Assembly (NCBI GenBank): GCA_000611775.1
Contig: KK106983.1
Location: forward strand, 5,647,818-5,711,817
Length of the DNA: 64,000 nucleotides
Reading direction: 5' to 3'
From: Umbilicaria muhlenbergii
Lineage: Eukaryota; Ascomycota; Lecanoromycetes; Umbilicariales; Umbilicariaceae
A model generated the notes under the pieces. That model was not told where the DNA came from and searched no databases. It saw only the letters and a program-made list of their open reading frames with translations. Below are positions 44,036 through 46,386 of the stretch, piece by piece. The translations under genes and the position numbers were made by a program. Position 1 is the first letter of the stretch; each line of letters starts with the position of its first letter.

Positions 44036-45509
44036 ATGTACTCATCATTATTCCTCATTGCCTCTGCCGTCGCTGCTCCGGTGTTGGCAAAGCAATGTAT
44101 CAATATTACCGTCCCTGTGGACATCTCTGCCCGGAACGGAGTTTTCAACCTTCCCACCCTCGAGACCAACTTCGATGCTACCACGTTCGCCCAGAACTTT
44201 ACGAACATCAAGGGCAATTTCACTGAAGAGACACTGCTCAACTATACGACCATTACCGGAACGTACGAGATCAGCGCCAAGTTCTGTAAGCCAGACAATG
44301 CCACCGATCAAATGCCCACTGTGCAGTTCCTTACTCATGGCCTCGGCTTCGATAAAACGTGAGTAGCTCTATACAGACTGTCTGAGCAAGAGAAACATCA
44401 CGACACTGTGAGCACCAGCTAATGAGATTTTCCGTCACAGGTATTGGGACCTAGCATACAACAACTACAACTACAGCTATACAGACGTCGCCGTTGACCA
44501 GTATGGCTTCTGTACTCTGGCCATTGATCGACTTGGCGTTGGCAACTCTTCCATCGCAGACCCTCTGGCCATCCTCCAAGCTCCCGCTGAGCTCTCGGCA
44601 ATCTATGAAATCACTATGATGCTACGGGCAGGGACACTACCCAATGTGCCTCACACCTTCAACAAAATCGTTCATGTTGGCCATTCCTTCGGATCCATAC
44701 TTAGCTACACTTTAGCCGCTATGCACCCCAACGTTACTGATGGCGTCGTTCTCACCGGATATTCGAACAATGGTTCATATGTGAACGAGTTTGCAGCATC
44801 TTTGGATGTCAAGTTGGCGCGTCTCAATCAACCATTGAGATTCGGTAATATCAGCTATGCCGCCGTTACTCATGGCCTGGCAACGCTTGGTAACCTGCCC
44901 TATAATGTGAGCGCTATCGCTCAAGAGCTTGCCTCACTTAACGTTTCCATCTCGGTGCTTCTCTCGGTTTTCGAGAGTACCGATCTTGCAGACTTTGCCG
45001 CAGGACTTGATCCGACAAACCTTCCCCACATGCAAGATCTTCCGACTGGGTATCTCACCTGGAATGATATCGGCAGCAACCAATACAGTTTCCTATATCC
45101 TCCATATTATGACATGAACCTTGGCGTGTTCACTGAGCGGACCAAGTTTCCCTTCACGCTGGGAGAGTTGCTCACCATTGGGAGCATACCTAGGGCGGCT
45201 CCGGGTTTCACTGGTCCGGTCCTGGTGCTCACTGGGAGTAAGCTCTTCCTTTGAATGTTGATTGGGTACCTCGACTAACATCTGACAGATCAAGATAATA
45301 TTTTTTGTGGTGGAGACTGCCTGGCCACCGGCGACCCAGCCTTGTCGTCGATCCCGGCTGATGTCGCCGCGTCTTTCCCAGCGGCAAGTGCGTTCGAAGC
45401 CTATATTCAGCCGAACACGGGGCACGGTATTAACGTGCATTACAATGCGACTGCTGCGTACCGGATTATACAGGAGTTCCTGGGCGCTCATGGGCTGGCA
45501 TCATCATGA
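44036..45509 (+). CDS. Secreted alpha/beta hydrolase
   Basis: Secreted serine hydrolase of about 446 residues. Exons are 44036..44358, 44441..45237 and 45289..45509, with introns of 82 and 51 bp. The signal peptide MYSSLFLIASAVAAPVLA should be cleaved near residue 18. The nucleophile elbow is GHSFGS (Ser about 190). The likely acid is Asp about 376 in NQDNIF, and the likely base is His about 419 in NTGHGINVH. The first residues of that last block are joined across splice junctions, which supports the exon model. More than ten Asn-x-Ser/Thr sites fit an extracellular glycoprotein. Substrate unknown. The family includes fungal lipase/esterase-like proteins. Confidence 0.9.
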
Positions 45510-45630: not shown

Positions 45631-45749
45631 TAACGTATCCCACGGGGCAACGCCGCACTATAGGCAACGCCGCACCCCCCCCCCCCGGGGGGGGGGGGGG
45701 GGGGGTGCGGCGTTGCCTATAGTGCGGCGTTGCCCCGTGGACTACGTTA
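45631..45749. repeat. Near-perfect inverted repeat with C12/G19 centre
   Basis: Left arm 45631-45674 and right arm 45706-45749 are 44 bp each and complementary at 42 positions. The only mismatches are TC against GT, eight bases in from the ends. The centre is C12 (45675-45686) followed directly by G19 (45687-45705). Each arm holds the 13-mer GGCAACGCCGCAC twice at 17-bp spacing (45646 and 45663 in the left arm). It starts about 120 bp past the hydrolase stop codon. The structure could form a long hairpin or cruciform. It may be a small fold-back element, or a misassembly at an inverted join. Confidence 0.9.
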
Positions 45750-46083: not shown

Positions 46084-46386
46084 NNNNNNNNNNNNNNNNN
46101 NNNNNNNNNNNNNNNNNNNNNNNNNNNNNNNNNNNNNNNNNNNNNNNNNNNNNNNNNNNNNNNNNNNNNNNNNNNNNNNNNNNNNNNNNNNNNNNNNNNN
46201 NNNNNNNNNNNNNNNNNNNNNNNNNNNNNNNNNNNNNNNNNNNNNNNNNNNNNNNNNNNNNNNNNNNNNNNNNNNNNNNNNNNNNNNNNNNNNNNNNNNN
46301 NNNNNNNNNNNNNNNNNNNNNNNNNNNNNNNNNNNNNNNNNNNNNNNNNNNNNNNNNNNNNNNNNNNNNNNNNNNNNNNNNNNNNN
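46084..46386. other. Run of 303 N (sequence gap)
   Basis: All bases are N. The flanks are C/T-rich simple sequence (CCCACC.. before, CCTCCCCCC after), which may explain the gap. The true length is unknown. The 5' leader or a first exon of the next gene could be hidden here. Confidence 0.99.

Follow-up and report, generated by a model that had tools for sequence, protein, structure and literature searches.

Among the described systems, fungal Tc1/mariner transposons and the short derivatives of such elements come closest to the locus analyzed here. The relevant passages of PMC3441728 present DAHLIAE1 and DAHLIAE2 of Verticillium dahliae as Tc1/mariner elements of ~1.9 kb with a DDE_1 domain and a TA duplication. 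For Trem, Aft1, and Tan1, the direct repeats within the ends are thought to be transposase-binding, as stated in the cited part of PMC2836289, and a TcMar-Pogo family of Sclerotinia sclerotiorum is listed in the corresponding section of PMC4188875 with ends that do not carry ACGT. In Drosophila, the short Bari MITEs are traced in the pertinent text to internal deletions whose breakpoints fall within the set of direct repeats in the terminal inverted repeats (TIRs; PMC4877112), and the pertinent text on Galileo names aborted repair, slippage, and template switching (PMC4168063). Abortive gap repair is named as a source of defective transposons in these portions of both accounts (PMC4168063, PMC4877112).

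Here, we analyzed a 119-bp inverted repeat at positions 45631–45749 of a 64,000-nucleotide stretch of Umbilicaria muhlenbergii DNA, the whole of which we refer to as the window. We consider it likely that this palindrome represents a MITE reduced to its ends (an ends-only copy), its non-autonomous family being derived from a Fot1/pogo-type Tc1/mariner transposon. On this reading, a striking palindrome becomes an ordinary transposon derivative, and both its C/G hinge and the two mismatches between its arms are accounted for.

Structure of the palindrome

The two 44-bp arms match at 42 of 44 positions, with mismatches at arm positions 8 and 9. If the C and G runs are included, each arm is 56 nt long, the complementarity is 96%, and 7 nt separate the two arms. 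A 13-mer, GGCAACGCCGCAC, occurs twice in each arm at a spacing of 17 bp; its exact matches in the window number four, all in the palindrome, and allowing up to three mismatches yields 23 window matches, approximately the shuffle level. After the window had been shuffled 20 times, the top-scoring 44-bp arm pairs matched at 25 to 28 positions, compared to 42/44 in the palindrome, which rules out a chance origin. Considered as RNA, the palindrome has a predicted fold of −127.6 kcal/mol versus −62.2 kcal/mol (sd 4.4) in 200 shuffles. The architecture given in the preliminary description, namely arms pairing at 42/44 positions, a 13-mer twice per arm, and a C12/G19 core, was thus confirmed, with a small correction concerning the borders of the core: the second 13-mer ends in the first C of C12, and the third starts with the final G of G19 (Table 1). 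For a neighboring ORF in the window, no PDB chain was matched; for an L3 fragment of the host, the closest PDB chains were those of 7r81 (Neurospora), 8oo0, and 7olc (Chaetomium). The sole N run in the window (303 N, 46084–46386) begins 335 bp after the palindrome on its downstream side and is surrounded by C/T-rich sequence.

Table 1 Features of the palindromic copy, in window positions
Feature	Position	Strand	Basis or remark
TA, left copy of presumed target-site duplication	45631..45632	.	presumed from empty sites of three other copies
Left TIR, TCCC type, begins ACGT	45633..45675	+	same end in other copies
13-mer of first 17-bp direct repeat, left end	45646..45658	+	compare two 17-bp repeats in fungal TIRs
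13-mer of second direct repeat, left end	45663..45675	+	
C12 tract, left end	45675..45686	+	C-runs of variable length here in other copies
G19 tract, read as left G-run fused to right G-run	45687..45705	+	fusion presumed
13-mer of inner direct repeat, right end	45705..45717	-	
13-mer of outer direct repeat, right end	45722..45734	-	
Right TIR, GTCC type, begins ACGT on minus strand	45705..45747	-	same end in other copies
TA, right copy of presumed target-site duplication	45748..45749	.	presumed on the same basis as the left TA

A MITE family with Fot1/pogo-type ends

Searching the genome (34.8 Mb, seven contigs) with the 30-bp core of the palindrome returned 70 matches at up to three mismatches, 47 of them exact, and none for the reversed control. 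A 28-bp pattern of the family end matched 64 times (control 0); these ends combine into 26 inward-facing pairs within 10 kb and leave 12 ends without a partner under this pattern. Most pairs (20/26) span 376–470 bp, one (the window copy) spans 119 bp, and the remaining five span 1120, 1989, 2766, 2776, and 5351 bp, one each. Across the 40 loci examined, 28 yield an end pair under one pattern. Of these end-paired copies, 27/28 start with TAACG and 28/28 finish with CGTTA, the sole non-TAACG copy being L033, in which the left end is shifted by one base. The family displays the properties that define MITEs, as its members are short, non-coding, and present in many similar copies with TIRs and a target duplication. 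An ordinary member, L043 (449 bp), has TIRs of 59 bp; the interior common to other MITE copies is missing from the window copy.

The preliminary description had proposed that copies with target-site duplications would support an element. We joined the flanks of 18 copies, including the window copy, and compared them with the genome. Among the matches listed, those spanning the join belonged to three copies (L070, L033, and L045). Eight of these uninterrupted sites were examined; their identity over the join was 78–94%, and a single TA was found in 8/8. For the other 15/18 copies, the window copy included, no match spanning the join was present among those listed. The duplication proposed for the element was found at three other copies, and at the window copy the observation is a TA on both sides, without a matching empty site.

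Concerning the parent element, L043 matches L033, a copy of 1989 bp, at both ends of the latter (positions 68–279 at 84% and 277–448 at 79%), which identifies the MITE as an internal-deletion relative of the L033 element. L033 and a second copy, L087, are 91% identical, and each contains a DDE_1 match holding seven in-frame stops. At ~2 kb, these two represent full-length-size relatives with DDE_1, as for Fot1/pogo-type Tc1/mariner elements. In a genome search that scores candidates only, 43 DDE_1 matches were obtained; among the matches listed, no stop-free DDE_1 lies within 30 kb of any family end, so that no intact transposase with family ends was found. The family ends, with TIRs of about 40–60 bp that start with ACGT and hold a pair of 17-bp direct repeats, and the use of TA as target agree with published features of fungal Tc1/mariner elements. 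Judged from DDE_1 and the end structure, a Fot1/pogo-type Tc1/mariner derivative appears to be the best explanation of the family. The window copy codes for nothing and is mobile only via transposase supplied in trans.

An earlier suggestion that the palindrome could be a fold-back transposable element holds in part. The repeated ends, the TA, and DDE_1 support a transposable element, which we take to belong to a Fot1/pogo-type Tc1/mariner MITE family and probably not to the classical foldback elements. The window copy fits the classical foldback shape only because its middle is gone; two other members, L060 and L039, do have that shape.

Several members carry changes of their own. Inside L033:486-2474 and L087:385-2379, the CpG observed/expected ratio is 0.15 and 0.06, respectively, versus 0.86 in the window. 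Substitutions between the two copies are transitions in 161 of 167 cases, and their terminal repeats keep CpGs, as judged by eye. Classical RIP is not indicated in L033 and L087 by the canonical indices (TpA/ApT 0.78 and 0.79; (CpA+TpG)/(ApC+GpT) 1.64 and 1.66), and the change is accordingly described as C-to-T decay with CpG loss and not as RIP. Two other copies are interrupted. At L081:499-5849 (C2:5550898-5556248), the MITE is split by ~4.9 kb encoding NDC10_II and GCR1_C domains, which we take to be a nested Crypton-like element. At L034:486-1605 (C7:165162-166281), it is broken near position 133 by ~670 bp that probably represent a different mobile element, with ends seemingly inverted on visual inspection.

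Origin of the hinge and competing explanations

Like many left-right copies, the window copy combines an end of the type TAACGTATCCC with an end of the type TAACGTAGTCC; a third end type in the family is TAACGTAACCC. By comparison with these sequences, the two arm mismatches correspond to the family's usual difference between left (TCCC) and right (GTCC) ends, and neither arm is a copy of the other. Among the TCCC ends with a readable interior, 15/16 lead into a C-run, a G-run, an A-run, and TCAGAATTTCACC, the exception being L038, in which a TCCC end is followed by a right-type interior. GTCC ends continue with a C-run and then mostly AACTATTGAAATTACCC; on the left-end strand, the right end of an ordinary copy reads AATAGTT followed by a G-run. 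The G after C in the hinge is explained by TCCC ends running on into the C-run, G-run, A-run interior. In an alignment to L043, the 330 bases that separate positions 57 and 388 have no counterpart in the window copy.

If the palindrome is an ends-only copy, it would have started as an ordinary copy of ~430–450 bp with both ends and TA flanks, and its 330-bp middle would have been lost in the cell. The G-tracts may have mediated this loss, the left G-run being joined to the right G-run so as to leave C12 and a longer G-run in this one copy, and the occasion may have been interrupted gap repair or slipped replication. Rubin and Levy 1997 appears among the references in the cited Galileo and Bari accounts of abortive gap repair. 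The 17-bp direct repeats in each end would presumably serve as transposase sites. The 119-bp form occurs in 1/26 pairs, with a junction for which there is no sister copy to confirm it. A random deletion of this size has a chance of ~0.10 of placing both borders in tracts, and the tract-to-tract fit is thus weak evidence alone.

The strongest competitor is an assembly collapse, in which the locus would be an ordinary ~430-bp copy whose left and right ends were fused at the G-tracts by the assembler. Such a collapse would give exactly the fused sequence of the window, and the form is known from a single copy. The assembly is moreover weak at the tracts, as N runs begin at or near them in seven other copies (L038, L053, L054, L056, L057, L066, and L069). 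However, the window join is contiguous without N, whereas difficult copies are shown with N, and L031 and L032, at different places, share their capture junctions at this tract, which indicates that at least some tract junctions are real. We regard a collapse as the less likely alternative to loss in the cell. The preliminary description had taken the two mismatches as a mild argument against a pure artefact. They do represent two end types, which contradict a mirror copy, but the collapse of an ordinary copy retains the minor share of probability that we assign to it.

It is very improbable that the window copy descends from a fold-back copy like L060 or L039 that lost the middle of its palindrome. 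Fold-back copies are present in the family and L038 is a known case of a TCCC end with a right-type interior, but the left-type interior prevails among readable TCCC ends (15/16), and both fold-back copies have one ACCC and one GTCC end. We give hardly any credence to the initial suggestion that the palindrome works for the upstream hydrolase-like gene as a terminator or a structured 3′ UTR: it does lie 121 bp past the presumed stop (45507–45509) with a very stable predicted fold, but its ends are repeated at dozens of unrelated sites in both orientations, which leaves this role unsupported as the primary explanation. No evidence of a role of the window copy for the neighboring gene was seen. 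The likewise proposed false inverted join, a read-back artefact with one arm as the mirror copy of the other, would agree with arms alike at 42/44 positions but is contradicted in that form by the right arm, which has a GTCC end, not the second TCCC end expected of a mirror copy, and its own, different flank; we consider it extremely improbable.

Rearranged relatives and comparison with known systems

In the fold-back member L060 (L060:286-721, C5:1394213-1394648, 436 bp), two 213-bp arms flank a 10-bp loop and are free of mismatches from arm position 59 to the loop; in L039 (L039:286-701, C1:7174355-7174770, 416 bp), a 77-bp spacer separates 170-bp arms that are 97% alike. Both have the right-type interior at both ends. 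Deletions bordering a tract were found in L050, L041, and L051, and ~55 bp are absent beside the C-run in L088 compared to L033. These fold-back and tract-bordering deletion copies may be assembly effects too.

Two 2.77-kb family members, L031:486-3261 (C2:636869-639644) and L032:486-3251 (C3:2840328-2843093), carry additional DNA. They are 99.4% identical over the element (identity 100, rounded, for a 2.2-kb query) and their flanks are unlike each other. In both, MITE positions 1–399 are followed by ~2.3 kb of other DNA and then by the outer part of the right end, beginning at the G-tract, the insert replacing part of the right end's tract. Since the same junctions occur in two copies, this rearrangement is likely real. 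Two ORFs in the insert look on visual inspection like a pair of exons, apparently with an intron. The second has a FAR-17a/AIG1 match (PF04750, E 1.1e-6), and for the first no Pfam family was matched. Outside its first 89 bases, which belong to the MITE, the insert query had L031 and L032 as its only places among the matches listed. A diverged PF04750 gene is located at C3:4339662-4340328.

As a tentative idea that we consider rather doubtful, the inner C/G tract could act as a template-switch hub for deletion, fold-back, and gene capture. Strands in post-excision repair would then slip between tracts, and the products would be the ends-only palindrome of the window, right-right fold-back copies (L060, L039), tract-bordering deletions (L041, L050, L051, L088), and the capture of a host-like gene (L031/L032). 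By randomization, a border within ~3 nt of a tract in 4/4 chosen deletions has P ~0.002, and for one or more deletions having each border in a tract, P is 0.15; this statistic was made post hoc on four deletions (L050, L041, L051, and the window copy) from the gaps of 27 aligned elements with ambiguous alignment at the tract borders, and is suggestive only. It left out losses or gains around single 17-bp units (in L036, L045, and L047 and at one place in L041), small length changes within or next to the tracts (L037, L044, L046, L052, L055, L064, L067, L068, L070), N-bearing copies (L053, L054, L057, L066), the fold-back copies L039 and L060, and L056, which has two small deletions outside tracts and a further one beside N. 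If the idea were true, the family would offer a compact natural case of ends-only, fold-back, and gene-carrying elements from the same ends. In the passages covered by our literature search, no earlier description of a tract as a shared breakpoint for deletion, fold-back, and capture was found. A text search of the literature covered with four end sequences gave no match.

Compared with the closest fungal systems, the family resembles DAHLIAE1 and DAHLIAE2, as portrayed in the cited sections, in its ACGT ends, TA duplication, TIRs with 15–17-bp direct repeats, and DDE_1, and the direct repeat of DAHLIAE2 includes a C-run comparable to that of the family (PMC3441728). Unlike DAHLIAE1 and DAHLIAE2, which are described there as full-length and coding elements with other repeats, the 2-kb copies found here are broken and the window copy consists of ends only. 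Trem, Aft1, and Tan1 likewise have TIRs with two 17-bp direct repeats but differ in sequence, and palindromic copies are not mentioned in the relevant part of their description (PMC2836289). ACGT ends, a TA duplication, and MITEs of the same superfamily are shared with Tc1/mariner elements of Sclerotinia sclerotiorum, where, however, the section concerned reports TIRs without direct repeats and MITEs of 481–813 nt (PMC4188875); judging from these families, published families do not all show both ACGT and direct repeats.

Outside these fungal families, Galileo of Drosophila is similar in that its TIRs change and extend, but it belongs to the P superfamily and has long TIRs, according to the portion cited (PMC4168063). 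The histone H3-like transduplication in Pyrenophora tritici-repentis is, like L031/L032, a fungal DNA transposon with a host-like gene, but the passage in question concerns a hAT element in many copies and not a Tc1/mariner MITE (PMC3538342). The short Bari MITEs, as depicted in the text cited, are ends-only Tc1/mariner copies too, some of them below 120 bp (PMC4877112); they stem from an animal and comprise many like copies of one deletion, whereas here a single copy was found with its break in C/G tracts. As for the window copy itself, both ends-only Tc1/mariner MITEs below 120 bp and a C-run in a fungal TIR are already published.
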